A stretch of 64,000 nucleotides of DNA from Balneolaceae bacterium (GTDB lineage: Bacteria; Bacteroidota; Rhodothermia; Balneolales; Balneolaceae): the NCBI GenBank assembly GCA_017640665.1, contig JAEPQE010000001.1, positions 761,262-825,261 of the forward strand, written 5' to 3'. Positions 1 through 17,736 of this stretch are shown one piece after another. The translations under genes and the position numbers were made by a program. Each line of letters starts with the position of its first letter. Position 1 is the first letter of the stretch. The notes below the pieces were generated by a model. The model worked only from the letters and a program-made list of their open reading frames with translations, did not search any database and was not told where the DNA came from.

Positions 1-2
1 GG

Positions 3-206
3 GAAATCTGGGGCTTGCGGGTAAATGAATACCTGAATCTTATTGAGTCTTTATTCTGGCCAGACCTTTTTATTATTGGTGGGGGTGTCAGCAAAAAGTT
101 TGAAGACTTCAAAGAATATCTGGATGTTGAAGCAAGGATAGTTCCTGCAGCAAGCCGAAACCATGCTGGTATTATAGGCGCGGCTTTGGCCTCACTTAAT
201 CAATAG
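3..206 (+). CDS. ROK-family (polyphosphate glucokinase-like) protein, 3' end only
   Basis: C-terminal part of a gene that begins before the window. The frame is open from base 3, so the TTG at 15 is an internal codon. The visible 67 residues align with the C-terminus of polyphosphate glucokinases of the ROK family: a helix ending in an [12 protein letters not shown]-type strand and loop, and a closing [10 protein letters not shown] motif. They also align with the second ROK gene at 11058-11804. These C-terminal glycines are intact here and partly lost in that paralogue. The family phosphorylates glucose with polyphosphate or ATP in the cytoplasm. The catalytic half is outside the window, so activity cannot be judged. 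Confidence 0.8.
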
Positions 207-3561: not shown

Positions 3562-3924
3562 TTATACATAATTGGCTATTTCTTTTTTGATACGATCAAT
3601 TACGCTGTCCATATCATCTTCAATTTCACTGTTTCTGAATCTTAAAATGTGTATTCCGTTTCGTATTAAGAACACATCTTTGTTTACATCTTTTCTTTTT
3701 ATTTCTTCGAGATCATGAATACCGCCATCTATTTCAATACAAGTATTTGCCTGGGGAATGAAGAAGTCTAAAATATACGGTCCTATTCCATATTTTCTTT
3801 TAAAACGCACCCCAAGAATCTGCTTATTGCGTACTCTCTCCCAAAATAGCTTTTCTGCTGAAGTCATTGACCTTCTGAGGCTCCTTCTTTGATCTAAGCT
3901 ATTTCGCGGATTTTTAGTACCCAT
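3562..3924 (-). CDS. DUF559-domain, Vsr-like putative endonuclease
   Basis: A 120-residue protein of the DUF559 family, related to very-short-patch-repair (Vsr) and other PD-(D/E)xK nuclease folds. Visible features: a basic N-terminus, an RxxMTxAEKLFWE helix, FKRKYGIGPYILDFF with Asp53, CIEIDGGIH with Glu64, Asp66 and His70, and an ILRFRNSEI strand near the end. The length is normal for stand-alone DUF559 genes. It lies between hutU and hutI on the operon strand with 123-nt and 132-nt gaps, unlike the overlapping hutH/hutU and hutI/hutG junctions. Near-identical direct repeats lie outside both ends. No role in histidine degradation is expected; its function is unknown. Confidence 0.8.
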   Translation of the reverse strand: MGTKNPRNSLDQRRSLRRSMTSAEKLFWERVRNKQILGVRFKRKYGIGPYILDFFIPQANTCIEIDGGIHDLEEIKRKDVNKDVFLIRNGIHILRFRNSEIEDDMDSVIDRIKKEIANYV

Positions 3925-11057: not shown

Positions 11058-11804
11058 TTAAATAAGCTTCTGATTTTTTGCAGCATAATAAGCCGCACCA
11101 ACAATACTTGCATCTCTGCCAAATTCTGCTGGTTTAAGCTTTGTACTTATTTTGATATAGGGCATCACTTTCTCTGGTTTTTTACTAATCTGACCGCCGA
11201 GAATAAACATATCCGGATGAAACAGATGTTCGTAATGTTCCAGCACAAACTGAAGTCGTTTAGCCCAGGTTTTCTTCCGAACTCCCTCTTCTTTACGGGC
11301 CGTATTTGATGCCCGGTCTTCAATCTTAATTCCTTTAATCTCAATCTGTCCGAGCTCGGTATTTGGCACGAGGTTTCCATCCACAAAAATAGAAGACCCA
11401 ATTCCATCGCCAATGTTTAACACAACTACTGTTCCGGAGGCTTTCCGCCCCACACCAAAAGTCATTTCCGCGATACCGGTTGCGTCGGTTTGATTAATCA
11501 CATTTACTTTACAGCCTGTAATCTCAGAAAAGAGGTGCTCTGCATCGGCATCTACCCAGGCTTCATTAATTCGGTTGGCAGAAAGAATGATTCCTTTCGT
11601 GGTTGGAGCGGGAAATGAACATCCTACCGGACCTTTCCAGTCAAATTTCTTTACCACTTTATGAATCTTGGAAATGAGTTTATGAGGCCGGGAATCTTCT
11701 GCACTATCCGTAGATTTTTTGCCGGACACAATTTCCCCCTTCTCGGTATCAACAATTGCACCTTTAATACTTTTACCAACTATATCTATCCCCAGGACTT
11801 CCAC
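11058..11804 (-). CDS. Polyphosphate-glucokinase-like ROK protein with degraded catalytic motifs
   Basis: A 248-residue protein that aligns end to end with polyphosphate glucokinases, but the key motifs are altered. The phosphate-binding DxGG(S/T) is Asp7-Ile-Val9-Gly10-Lys11. The N-D-A-D catalytic block is Asn104-Gln105-Thr106-Asp107, replacing the general-base Asp with Gln. GTGIGSA is Gly132-Asp133-Gly134-Ile-Gly136, and the E-x-G-H metal/sugar block ends in Gln153. Fold elements (LVPNTE, PDMFILGG, IVGAA) are kept. I infer a non-catalytic or repurposed sugar-kinase fold. The normal-looking paralogue ends at 206. The gene is intact, with no frameshift. Confidence 0.8.
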   Translation of the reverse strand: MEVLGIDIVGKSIKGAIVDTEKGEIVSGKKSTDSAEDSRPHKLISKIHKVVKKFDWKGPVGCSFPAPTTKGIILSANRINEAWVDADAEHLFSEITGCKVNVINQTDATGIAEMTFGVGRKASGTVVVLNIGDGIGSSIFVDGNLVPNTELGQIEIKGIKIEDRASNTARKEEGVRKKTWAKRLQFVLEHYEHLFHPDMFILGGQISKKPEKVMPYIKISTKLKPAEFGRDASIVGAAYYAAKNQKLI

Positions 11805-11921: not shown

Positions 11922-14900
11922 TTACTTCTCTACCAGCACCCAACCTTCTTCATCAACCAGGCGCTTAGCATGCTTCCATTTGATTTCTTTGGTTGCACCA
12001 CTGCTCATGTTTTGAATGGTAACGTGATCGTTGCGTCCGGGCTCATCGGCTACTTCAACCGGTTTGCGTTTTACGTTCGGTCCTGCCGGACGTGGCTGAT
12101 TTCCATTCTCTGGCTGAGCAGGAGCCTGAAGTCCCATTCCGGTTGAATCGGCATGCTGAGTTTGCATTTTACTGGTATCAAAACGTGATTTCTGCTGCTG
12201 TGCTTGTTGTACCTGGTTGTCTCCCATTTGAGCTTCAGGGAAAGATTTCCAGATTAAAGAAATAGCTTCCTGGTTAATCATACCCAGCAACTGCTTGAAC
12301 ATATCGAACGCTTCGCGCTTGTATTCCAGCAACGGATCTTTCTGGGCGAATGATCTCAACCCAATCCCTTCTTTCACCGAATCCAGTTCCCGAAGATGCT
12401 GCATCCATTTATCATCAATCACAGAAAGTACCGCTGATTTTTCCAGCGCACGTGCAACTTCTCTGCCTTCATTTTCAAGTGCGGCTTCTACATCAACAAC
12501 CACCCGCATACGTCGGAGTCCATCACTGAAAATTACCTGAACTTTGTCTGGTCGCCGATCAGGATTTGACTCCGTGATTCTCTTCATCACTTCATAAAGC
12601 GGCTTTGCCATCATCTCTTCTTTGCGCTTGTACACTTCCAGCGCTCTGGCAATAATCATTTCCACCAGTTCATCCTCATCCATCTGACGCCATTTCTCCC
12701 CATCAAATTCAACATCAACAGCCAGGTTTCGGAGTATTTCAGAATGGAGTCCTTCATAGTCTCCGGCCATCACGTGATCCGTGACCATGTCTTCAACCAG
12801 CTCTTCCAACATCCCAAGGATATCGGTTCGCAGCTGATCTCCCAACAGGGCATGCTTACGGCGAGCATAAATCACATTCCGCTGATTATTCAACACATCA
12901 TCGTATTCCAACTGTCGTTTTCTGATGCTGAAGTTATTCTGCTCTACTTTTGATTGAGCCCTTTCCAACGACTTGGTTATCCACGGGTGGGTAATCACTT
13001 CGCCTTCTTCAAAGCTGAGCTTGTCCATCACATTGGCAACACGGTCGCTCATAAACAACGACATCAATTTATCTTCCAGAGACACAAAGAACTGCGATTC
13101 ACCGGGATCTCCCTGTCGACCGGAACGACCGCGAAGCTGCAAATCAATTCGGCGGGATTCGTGACGCTCGGTTCCTAAAATGGCAAGACCGCCGTTTTCT
13201 TTCACACCTGGTGCAAGCTTAATATCAGTACCACGACCGGCCATATTTGTAGCCACAGTTACTGCGCCGGGTTGACCGGCCTGCTTCACAATCTCACTTT
13301 CGCGCGCATGTTGCTTAGCATTCAAAACGTTATGAGCAATTCCTGCCCTCTGAAGCATACGACTCATCGTTTCGGAAACTTCCACACTGGTAGTTCCAAC
13401 CAGAACAGGCTGACCATTTTTATGATACTCTTCAATCTTATCGATTGAAGCCTTAAACTTTTCGCGCTTGGTTTTGAAAACCAAATCTTCTTTATCATCA
13501 CGCTGAATTGGGCGGTTGGTTGGAATTACCACCACATCAAGTTCATAAATTTCGTTGAATTCGCCCTCTTCCGTTTCAGCAGTCCCCGTCATACCCGAAA
13601 GCTTGTGGTACATTCGAAAATAGTTCTGCAAGGTGATGGTTGCATACGTCTGGGTAGATGCTTCTACTTTAACATTTTCTTTCGCTTCAATTGCCTGGTG
13701 TAAACCATCTGAATAACGCCGACCTGAAAGTACCCGTCCAGTATGTTCATCCACAATCTGAACTTTGCCATCCTGAACGATGTATTCTTCTTCCTTCTCG
13801 AAGTTGGTGTACGCTTTCAGAAGCTGATTTACCGTGTGAATACGGTCGCCACGCTCTGCAAACAATCGGTGTAGCTCGCTGAACTTACTCTCGCGTTCCT
13901 CTCGAACTTCAGTCTTAGCCTCGTCGATCTTCTTTTGCTTATATTCTTCGCTTAAGTCCTGAGCTTTAACTGCTTCAATTTTCTCCTTCTCCAGCTCTTC
14001 GACTTCCTTTTCAATTACAGAAGTTTCAACACCTAAATCCGGGATCACAAAAAACTCGGAATCTTCGTTTTTCTGAGTCACGAACTCCCTCCCTTTTTCT
14101 GTCATCTCGATGGAGTTCATCTTCATATCTACGGCATAGTACAAATATTCATCTACCACCGGCATGTTTTTGGCATTATCAGCTAAGTAGAAGGCTTCTG
14201 TTTTCTGGATCAGTTTCTGGATGCTCGGCTCCTGGAGCATCTTTTTGAATCGTGTGTTCTTCGGAAAACCGCGCTGTGCCCGGAAGAGTGCAAGTCCAGC
14301 TTCTTCTTCATTGCCCTCATCCAATAGTTTCTGACCTTCCTGAACGAGTTGCGCCACCAGCTTTTTTTGAGCTGCTACCAAAGCTTCAATCCTTGGCTTC
14401 ATCTCAATATACTTATCCGATTTATTATCATGAGGAACCGGGCCTGAAATGATAAGCGGGGTTCTGGCTTCATCAATTAAAATAGAATCCACCTCATCAA
14501 TAATCGTATAGTGATGTTCTTTCTGAACCAGTTGCTCCTTACCAATCACCATATTATCACGCAAATAGTCGAAGCCAAACTCGTTATTTGTTCCATAAGT
14601 GATGTCCGCGCGATAAGCTTTCCGGCGTTGCTCAGTATTTGGCTCGTATCGATCGATACAGTCTACATGTATGTCGTGGAAGTTGAAGATTGGCTCGTTC
14701 CACTCAGCATCTCGTTTTGCCAGATAGTTATTTACTGTAATTACATGAACTCCTTTGCCTGCAAGAGCATTCAAAAATGCCGGGAAAATAGCCACAAGTG
14801 TTTTACCCTCACCCGTTTTCATTTCGGCAATCTTTCCCTGGTGCAGCACAATCGCTCCCACTAATTGTACATCATAAGGAATCATATTCCATTCAACTTC

Positions 14901-15308
14901 ATCACCCGCTACTTTCCAGCTTTTACCGACAAATCGACGGCAGGTATCTTTAAGTACTGCATAAGCTTCGGGCAAAATGTCATTCAGTACACCTTCAATG
15001 ATGTCTAATTCCTGTTGTTCCAGCTTCTCAAGTTCATCAGCCAGATCCCGGTGCTCTGACGGTGATAAGTCCTCAATGTTGTCCAGTTGCTTCTTTACTT
15101 CATCAATTCGCTCTCTGGTTTCCTTTGTTGCTTCCTGGATTTCATTCTTGAAGCCTTCCGTTTTGGCTTTAAGTTGATCATCACTCAATTTCTCCATTTC
15201 AGGACCGTAAGACTTAATCTTGTCTACAATCGGCTGAATGGACTTAATGTCTTTCTCGCTCTTTGAGCCAAATATCTTGGTAATGAGCTTTCCTACTTTA
15301 TCAATCAT
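11922..15308 (-). CDS. secA: Preprotein translocase ATPase SecA
   Basis: A 1128-residue SecA, the motor for SecYEG export. The Walker A motif is at residues 164-170 (KTGEGKT); a DEVDS Walker B (VDSILIDEARTPLIISG) lies near 265; helicase motifs include GTDIKLAPGV and LQLRGRSGRQGDPG. The length exceeds the about 900 residues of E. coli because of the helical insertion typical of Bacteroidota (after ISGPVPHDN, rich in Glu and Lys). The usual GRND-PCPCGSGKK-type zinc-binding tail is absent: GRND is followed by a cysteine-free 30-residue tail ending EEGWVLVEK. A promoter is visible upstream at 15343-15374. Confidence 0.98.
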   Translation of the reverse strand: MIDKVGKLITKIFGSKSEKDIKSIQPIVDKIKSYGPEMEKLSDDQLKAKTEGFKNEIQEATKETRERIDEVKKQLDNIEDLSPSEHRDLADELEKLEQQELDIIEGVLNDILPEAYAVLKDTCRRFVGKSWKVAGDEVEWNMIPYDVQLVGAIVLHQGKIAEMKTGEGKTLVAIFPAFLNALAGKGVHVITVNNYLAKRDAEWNEPIFNFHDIHVDCIDRYEPNTEQRRKAYRADITYGTNNEFGFDYLRDNMVIGKEQLVQKEHHYTIIDEVDSILIDEARTPLIISGPVPHDNKSDKYIEMKPRIEALVAAQKKLVAQLVQEGQKLLDEGNEEEAGLALFRAQRGFPKNTRFKKMLQEPSIQKLIQKTEAFYLADNAKNMPVVDEYLYYAVDMKMNSIEMTEKGREFVTQKNEDSEFFVIPDLGVETSVIEKEVEELEKEKIEAVKAQDLSEEYKQKKIDEAKTEVREERESKFSELHRLFAERGDRIHTVNQLLKAYTNFEKEEEYIVQDGKVQIVDEHTGRVLSGRRYSDGLHQAIEAKENVKVEASTQTYATITLQNYFRMYHKLSGMTGTAETEEGEFNEIYELDVVVIPTNRPIQRDDKEDLVFKTKREKFKASIDKIEEYHKNGQPVLVGTTSVEVSETMSRMLQRAGIAHNVLNAKQHARESEIVKQAGQPGAVTVATNMAGRGTDIKLAPGVKENGGLAILGTERHESRRIDLQLRGRSGRQGDPGESQFFVSLEDKLMSLFMSDRVANVMDKLSFEEGEVITHPWITKSLERAQSKVEQNNFSIRKRQLEYDDVLNNQRNVIYARRKHALLGDQLRTDILGMLEELVEDMVTDHVMAGDYEGLHSEILRNLAVDVEFDGEKWRQMDEDELVEMIIARALEVYKRKEEMMAKPLYEVMKRITESNPDRRPDKVQVIFSDGLRRMRVVVDVEAALENEGREVARALEKSAVLSVIDDKWMQHLRELDSVKEGIGLRSFAQKDPLLEYKREAFDMFKQLLGMINQEAISLIWKSFPEAQMGDNQVQQAQQQKSRFDTSKMQTQHADSTGMGLQAPAQPENGNQPRPAGPNVKRKPVEVADEPGRNDHVTIQNMSSGATKEIKWKHAKRLVDEEGWVLVEK

Positions 15309-16227: not shown

Positions 16228-17736
16228 TTATTGAATTGTAAATTGAACCATTACGATGTTTTCACTTTCAATAACCGGAGGATCGTTAGAACCTTCACTC
16301 CCATCAAACTCATAAGAACCAATGGTTCCATTATCGATATGAAGCATAGCCCATACTTTATCGCCTGATTCTAGTGTTTCACCACTATTTAAAGTGATTT
16401 CTACATCGGAATTAGCACCAAGGTAAACCTGAGCTTTTCCAATTTCATCGGGTACAACAGGCGCATTACTTCCATTATCTCTGTGGAGAACAATAAATCC
16501 GATTTGCTTGGTATTCACTTCATCGATTGTAACCATAGTTCCATTTGATGATTGATCAGACGCTACTACTGATGCTTCAGGAGTAGCTCCCATCACTGTA
16601 ATAGAAGTCATAAGAATTCCATTCGCAGTAATTACAGGCTGGTCGTTAACACCAACTCCATCAAATTCGTACTCTCCTTTTACACCGGTATCGTAATGAA
16701 CCATTGGCCATAACTGTTCGCCGTCTTCAACTACTTCACCTTCATTAAACATGATTTCTACATCGGTGTTCATTCCGGTTGTAATATGAGCTTTACCAAT
16801 AATCTCAGGAACCTGAGGACCATCATTAGTAGCGTTTGAGCGGTGTACGACAACCCAACCATCGGTGTCTGAGTTTACATCAACCATCATGGAGTTGTTC
16901 ATGATCATTTGATCTTCAGCTGTGAGAGAAGACATATTTGCCTGAACTTCGAATGAGGTCAGCACAATATCTGTACCTGAAAGTACAGGACCGTCAAATC
17001 CGTTTTGTCCGTCAAACTCATACTCTCCTTCTGTTCCTGTATCAAAGTGGAGCATAGGGTATAACATATCTCCAGTCTGTACATTTGCTTCGCTGTCTAC
17101 CGAGATTTCAACTCCGGTATTTGTTCCGGCCATTACAGGAGCTTTACCAATAATTTCAGGAACTTGAGGTCCATCATTAGTGGCATTTGATGCATGAATC
17201 ACAATCCAGCCATCTTCAGCTGCATTAACATCCACCACAAAAATATTGCCCATATTTACCTGATCTTCTGATGTAATCATAGGATCGGTTTGAGAAATTG
17301 AAAATGAAGTCATTACAATTTCTTCTTCAAAAATAACCGGGCCGTCAAAGCCATTCTGGCCATCAAACTCATACTCTCCGATAGTTCCATCATCTATATG
17401 AAGCATTGCCCATAGTTTTTCATTATTGGAAACACCTTCTTCAAGCTGAATTGCTACTGAGGTATTTTCGCCTTCGCTAACTTGTGCCTTTCCAATAATA
17501 TCCGGAACCAAAGGTCCGTCATTATTGGAGTTTGAACGGTGGATTACAATCCATCCATCCTGAGGAGCTGTCACTCCGGAAATCATAACCTGATTTCCAT
17601 TCATAGTTCCCTGTGTTGATACTGATACTTCGGGAATAACAGTCATTTCATCTCCACCTGTAGAACTCTCGTCACAAGCAAAGAATGGTACCGTTAGTAC
17701 CAAAGTTAAGATTATAATTTTCTTTAGTGATTTCAT
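16228..17736 (-). CDS. Lipoprotein with four tandem DUF7282-like repeats
   Basis: A 502-residue protein with a lipoprotein signal peptide (VPFFAC, lipidated Cys21), then a Ser/Gly/Asp linker. Four repeats of about 115-120 residues start near 38, 150, 270 and 390. Each carries GWIVIHRSN-type, NDGPxVPxIIGKA, a Glu-rich strand, LWxMLHxDxGTxGEYEFDG and a final MTSF strand. This resembles DUF7282, best known from haloarchaeal surface proteins. The repeats are mutually very similar, so the array looks recently amplified. The fourth is the most diverged. It is anchored at the cell envelope; the function is unknown. Confidence 0.75.
   Translation of the reverse strand: MKSLKKIIILTLVLTVPFFACDESSTGGDEMTVIPEVSVSTQGTMNGNQVMISGVTAPQDGWIVIHRSNSNNDGPLVPDIIGKAQVSEGENTSVAIQLEEGVSNNEKLWAMLHIDDGTIGEYEFDGQNGFDGPVIFEEEIVMTSFSISQTDPMITSEDQVNMGNIFVVDVNAAEDGWIVIHASNATNDGPQVPEIIGKAPVMAGTNTGVEISVDSEANVQTGDMLYPMLHFDTGTEGEYEFDGQNGFDGPVLSGTDIVLTSFEVQANMSSLTAEDQMIMNNSMMVDVNSDTDGWVVVHRSNATNDGPQVPEIIGKAHITTGMNTDVEIMFNEGEVVEDGEQLWPMVHYDTGVKGEYEFDGVGVNDQPVITANGILMTSITVMGATPEASVVASDQSSNGTMVTIDEVNTKQIGFIVLHRDNGSNAPVVPDEIGKAQVYLGANSDVEITLNSGETLESGDKVWAMLHIDNGTIGSYEFDGSEGSNDPPVIESENIVMVQFTIQ

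Follow-up and report, generated by a model that had tools for sequence, protein, structure and literature searches.

A secA-linked protein of polyphosphate glucokinase descent in the Balneolales is a probable pseudokinase maintained by selection

The best solved relative of the protein described here is the inorganic polyphosphate/ATP glucomannokinase of Arthrobacter sp. KM (1woq), with which, as with the polyphosphate-glucose phosphotransferases of model NF045942, it aligns over its full length and has the short ROK fold in common. The residues on which catalysis depends in such kinases have been studied by mutagenesis of PsNagK, where the change D105N, equivalent to loss of the catalytic Asp, lowers activity below detection (at least 1000-fold), the equivalent of Asp7 is essential, and the changes T10V/T132V, both affecting phosphate-coordinating Thr residues, lower kcat 11–16 fold (PMC10031466). 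The conserved connect-1 Asp is also cited as essential in polyphosphate glucokinases (PPGKs) in the paper on All1371 (PMC4252912). A non-kinase ROK fold with a ligand cleft is known from the ROK regulators Mlc, NagC, Lmo0178, and MecR2. Outside the ROK family, in eukaryotic hexokinases, the sensor AtHXK1 and the protein TbHXK2 are proteins with a sugar-kinase fold that retain a role in signalling or as a partner in the absence of catalysis, with the inactive TbHXK2 acting on TbHXK1 as a hetero-oligomer partner (PMC8256278). The protein reported here resembles them in this respect, but their function has been demonstrated, whereas for our protein it is inferred. No bacterial ROK pseudokinase of a comparable kind was found in the literature searched.

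The window, i.e., the whole stretch of 64,000 nucleotides from a Balneolaceae bacterium that was analyzed, contains on its minus strand an open reading frame of 248 aa, which begins with GTG and is free of stop codons (Table 1). The original prediction, which gave no strand, had described this frame as intact and the protein as a full-length match to polyphosphate glucokinases, and both statements are borne out: the match to 1woq extends over residues 3–247 (E 2.5e-48), and stops are absent from every orthologue. The protein belongs to the ROK fold family by its score against PF00480 (49.5 bits; cut-off 22.9), and it passes the NCBIfam model NF045942 marginally (251.1 bits; cut-off 250), with the orthologues from its sister species falling under this cut-off (246.8 and 236.3 bits). 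A second protein without the catalytic Asp (locus L105 of genome G067) also scores above it (256.6 bits), and this equivalog model thus assigns the name polyphosphate-glucose phosphotransferase to catalytically broken proteins. In the AlphaFold2 model, built with 57 natural sequences (mean pLDDT 95.1), the predicted fold is that of the active enzymes: 1woq ranks first by Foldseek (TM 0.95) and superimposes by VIA-align with a Z score of 37.3 and an rmsd of 1.2 Å over 245 residues. The same fold is predicted for the most diverged Asp-less orthologue, from G035 (pLDDT 94.8). The Z scores against the ROK regulators Lmo0178 and MecR2 were 27.2 and 23.3, respectively. The protein differs from these regulators in that its sequence is closest to PPGKs and not to repressors, and in the absence of a DNA-binding domain; in the model the kinase fold begins at residue 1, with no N-terminal helix-turn-helix or other extra domain.

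Table 1. Positions in the window of the secA-linked gene, its motifs, and the neighboring genes discussed in the text.
Feature	Position	Strand	Basis or remark
CDS of secA-linked ROK/PPGK-derived putative pseudokinase	11058..11804	(-)	ORF, translation, PF00480, NF045942, AF2 model
Phosphate-1 loop D7-I-V-G-K11	11772..11786	(-)	Active PPGKs have DxGG[ST], most orthologues DIGSY
Catalytic segment N104-Q105-T-D107	11484..11495	(-)	Gln for catalytic Asp; N104 and D107 invariant
Phosphate-2 loop G132-D133-G-I-G136	11397..11411	(-)	GTGIG in active PPGKs
Sugar motif E150-L-G-Q153 (ExGH)	11346..11357	(-)	Alignment of orthologues
secA, conserved upstream neighbor	11922..15308	(-)	ORF list, synteny; same strand as the gene above
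Intact PPGK paralogue, not secA-linked, 3' end	1..206	(+)	Full CDS L005:8734-9468; NF045942 322 bits

The readings of the motifs made in the original prediction, including the retained segments PDMFILGG and IVGAA, are all correct in the translation. Unlike 1woq, the protein carries Gln in place of Asp123, Lys in place of T22, Asp in place of T151, and Gln in place of both G223 and H171, and its gene is linked to secA. It therefore has neither the catalytic Asp of the ND motif nor the DxGG[ST] and GTG phosphate loops of functional PPGKs (EC 2.7.1.63). As Gln105, K11, and D133 occupy the three functional positions of PsNagK (K11 and D133 corresponding to its T10 and T132), there is a strong case that the protein is inactive. 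The prediction had, in addition, counted four degraded motifs, and this view holds in part. The changes at V9/K11, Q105, and D133 are recent, but the remainder of what was taken for degradation is ancestral: within the family (f1), DIGSY in place of DIGGS, a C-terminal GGQ in place of GGG, and an ExGH motif without its His are near-universal, with loop 1 mostly DIGSY and the His mostly replaced in members that keep the Asp as well. Members of f4 and f5, two other families of the order, mostly carry DIGG[ST] and NDAD.

To place these changes on a tree, 59 distinct secA-linked orthologues were aligned with 27 other PPGKs, 1woq among the latter. The catalytic Asp is kept in 52 of the 59 orthologues and it is missing in seven proteins, viz. 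those from the window's genus (Q, Q, and K), G011 and G026 (A in both), G067 (N), and G035 (G); all of the other 79 aligned proteins possess it. In a tree built after removal of the motif columns, the seven proteins correspond to four independent losses, and these losses, with five different replacement residues, indicate that position 105 is simply free. In answer to the check proposed in the original prediction, N-Q-T-D is not fixed across the Balneolota. Retention of the Asp by most orthologues, which is what we observe, had been named there as a refutation, being a sign of local decay or a sequencing error; in the strict sense this outcome has occurred, but the conclusion attached to it is excluded by strong constraint on the protein and by the sister-species assemblies: NQTD is encoded in two independent assemblies, by CAA in one and CAG in the other, and a third species has NKTD. 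The metal ligand Asp7 and Lys14 are retained in the window's genus; in G011 and G026 Asp7 is also gone (VIEED), and Lys14 is present in six of the seven Asp-less copies and replaced by Arg in the remaining one. Four further orthologues, L107 (G070), L104 (G069), L023 (G007), and L027 (G016), are graded intermediates which keep the Asp and have a broken phosphate-2 loop; in that of G070 the phosphate-1 loop is broken too.

The distribution of the changes within the Asp-less proteins is uneven. Among sites that are at least 90% conserved in the other 79 proteins, ten lie in the donor loops or at the catalytic base and 49 elsewhere. The numbers of these sites changed in the two classes are, respectively, 4 and 1 in G000, 7 and 1 in G011, 7 and 0 in G026, 4 and 2 in G067, and 7 and 9 in G035, and across the seven Asp-less copies the concentration in the donor loops is significant with the base omitted (Fisher p 1e-4). 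None of the seven has a change at Asn104, Asp107, Pro147, Asn148, Glu150, Arg170, or Trp180. A ligand-binding role is supported mainly by this loss of donor and catalytic sites together with the retention of the sugar-side Asn and Glu. The Glu of ExGH is among the residues kept in every Asp-less copy, and its His is variable throughout the orthologue group; the absence of His at position 153 makes glucose less secure as the ligand.

Selection on the Asp-less proteins was estimated from likelihood profiles, as synonymous sites were saturated under pairwise NG86/YN00. The values of omega between Asp-less orthologues were 0.021 (G000–G002) and 0.022 (G011–G026), with upper limits of about 0.04; these point values are rough owing to the saturation, but neutrality is clearly rejected, the fit at omega=1 being poorer by 160 and 163 log units, respectively. 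For G067, omega measured against Asp-keeping relatives was 0.09–0.12. The Asp-less copy is also more conserved than the intact paralogue of the same genomes, the identities being 90.3% versus 81.1% within the window's genus and 93.8% versus 84.9% between G011 and G026. In relative-rate tests of the Asp-less stems against close Asp-keeping relatives, the unique changes were 37:3, 35:13, and 37:17, and for the stem of G035, where the comparator was a more distant Asp-keeping relative, they were 76:24. No such stem acceleration was observed in either paralogue comparison (window's genus and G011). Rapid change on the stem with strong constraint thereafter, as found for the window's genus and for G011/G026 (G035 and G067 being single sequences), indicates at the sequence level a functional transition and not decay. 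The loss of catalytic residues from a fold that is kept under purifying selection is the pattern expected of a pseudoenzyme, and it is very probable on these grounds that the protein is catalytically dead and yet selected.

The association of this gene with secA is a second distinctive feature. In the families f1, f2, f4, and f5 of the order, secA is followed immediately at its 3' side by the orthologue, which has the same orientation. The distance between the two genes is usually 2–240 bp, and among the genomes checked several show as little as 2 to 12 bp; the window has 117 bp at this point, without a terminator-like hairpin. The secA-linked proteins form a clade with an SH-aLRT value of 100, from which the paralogue branches separately, and the gene is vertically inherited within the order, its hosts being marine and saline bacteria. 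Adjacency to secA was seen in none of the 26 PPGK loci read outside the order (20 class or phylum regions and six more distant named loci), all 26 of which keep ND. Some genomes of the order are without the secA-linked gene, so that the lineage can dispense with it. In G011 and G026, both Asp-less, an insert of 3–4.3 kb separates secA from the gene. In G011 the insert contains a CBASS-type defence cassette (L087:3874-7737) comprising a CapH and CapP-like pair, a patatin-type phospholipase effector, a CD-NTase, and an E2-like protein; that of G026 (3 kb) includes a REP-type transposase-like ORF at L086:5513-6061, which was identified by eye and gave no PADLOC hit.

Based upon these observations, the protein is probably a pseudokinase of PPGK descent, encoded beside secA, which has kept its ligand cleft for a non-catalytic role. 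The ancestor would have been a ROK-family polyphosphate/ATP glucokinase, encoded directly downstream of secA before the families of the order split. In the window's genus, with the general base gone and both phosphate-binding loops altered, sugar phosphorylation would have been lost, but the two-domain ROK cleft is predicted to be still folded, with the sugar contacts Asn104 and Glu150 kept under purifying selection for a non-catalytic job. Before the Asp was lost, the secA-linked ROK protein probably already had a further function that does not depend on catalysis. That selection acts on a non-catalytic role had been anticipated in the original prediction, and the dN/dS estimate that it called for (omega 0.02), the predicted intact fold, the four losses, and the preservation of the rest of the protein all agree with it. 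The likeliest mechanism, by analogy with the ROK regulators and with hexokinases that signal without catalysis (PMC8256278), is that of a sensor: a sugar or sugar-like ligand would bind, causing a conformational change that is signalled to a partner, probably a protein, since no DNA-binding domain is present. This partner could be the paralogue with intact motifs, a product co-expressed with secA, or a further regulator. The assignment as a sugar-binding sensor or regulator, which had been suggested previously and is possible by this analogy, is more tentative, somewhat short of an even chance, and the ligand may be other than glucose, as neither this protein nor most of its orthologues have the ExGH His, which contacts the sugar in ROK kinases. 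The secA linkage itself may be no more than co-expression. A speculative and unlikely extension is that in the Balneolales a sugar-responsive pseudokinase encoded with secA couples protein export, or else the intact paralogue, to carbohydrate status; if true, the role would depend so little on catalysis that the active site was given up on four separate occasions.

The paralogue is central to two other explanations. The 3' end of this gene at base 206 agrees with what was noted earlier; the encoded protein is 40% identical to the pseudokinase, and its motifs are intact at both ends. It resembles PPGKs of the wider class, and in several relatives as well as in the window's genus its gene adjoins one for an EamA transporter. 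The linkage proposed between the two genes holds by position, as they lie 11 kb apart in the window, but the meaningful linkage, seen across the order and not mentioned in the original prediction, is to secA. One explanation, modelled on TbHXK2, is that the inactive copy tunes the intact PPGK as its partner in hetero-oligomers. Both genes occur in ten genomes, the secA-linked copy being Asp-less in six, and the paralogue accompanies all but one of the seven Asp-less proteins, corresponding to three of the four loss events, versus four of the 52 Asp-keeping ones, with the two genes roughly 10–20 kb apart in G000, G001, G002, G011, and G014. However, this association is not significant allowing for relatedness (four events; sign test p 0.5), the two proteins are only 40% identical, and G067 has lost the Asp with no paralogue or other ROK glucokinase detected, which also contradicts a strict requirement of the paralogue for the loss; we consider such a partnership rather unlikely. 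Alternatively, the paralogue could have made the secA-linked kinase redundant, so that it is now in early decay. The occurrence of the losses mostly in paralogue-bearing genomes, the accelerated stems, and the graded erosion of motifs in G007, G016, G069, and G070 are all compatible with this. Nevertheless, an omega of 0.02 without stops, conservation exceeding that of the paralogue, and the concentration of changes at donor and catalytic sites largely refute it for the window's genus and G011/G026, leaving it a very small overall probability.

Selection for a non-catalytic job must also be weighed against readings in which phosphate is still handled. The residue D107, two positions past 105 and invariant in every aligned protein, the Asp-less ones included, could in principle serve as an alternative base, and with Asp7 and Lys14 kept in the window's genus a phosphate transfer or another reaction at a rebuilt site can be envisaged. 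This is improbable in view of the five unrelated residues at position 105, the phosphate loops that differ between Asp-less lineages with no new motif in common, and the loss in G011/G026 of Asp7, whose PsNagK equivalent is essential. A sensor of polyphosphate instead of sugar, which was also suggested earlier, would accord with descent from a polyphosphate-using family and with the near-constant Lys14, the equivalent of the phosphate-binding Lys25 of GMK (PMC4252912). It is not favored, and is in our view quite improbable, because the eroding parts are the phosphate loops themselves and orthologues persist in genomes where PPK1, and PPK2 over its cut-off, are not detected. In genus g6 this applies to seven of 12 genomes (G007, G025, G034, G064, G067, G068, and G072), which retain the secA-linked gene, mostly with its catalytic Asp. 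Loss of polyphosphate as the driver of Asp loss was likewise rejected, as the six relatives of the Asp-less G067 among these genomes keep the Asp.

For the preferred reading of a selected pseudokinase, the order offers a natural replicated experiment in the change from sugar kinase to pseudoenzyme, in which a single syntenic gene is represented by 59 sequences, with graded intermediates and four independent losses among them and with close Asp-keeping relatives as controls. The proposed second function is testable in cultivated relatives, e.g., Gracilimonas and Fodinibius.

Two other genes of the window, both on the minus strand, may be mentioned. A small DUF559-like ORF, named by eye, is present at 3562-3924 between hutI and hutU of a histidine-degradation cluster, and in a sister species (L074) the hutI–hutU gap is too short for it. 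At 16228-17736 there is a gene for a secreted-looking protein of 502 aa with four DUF7282 repeats.
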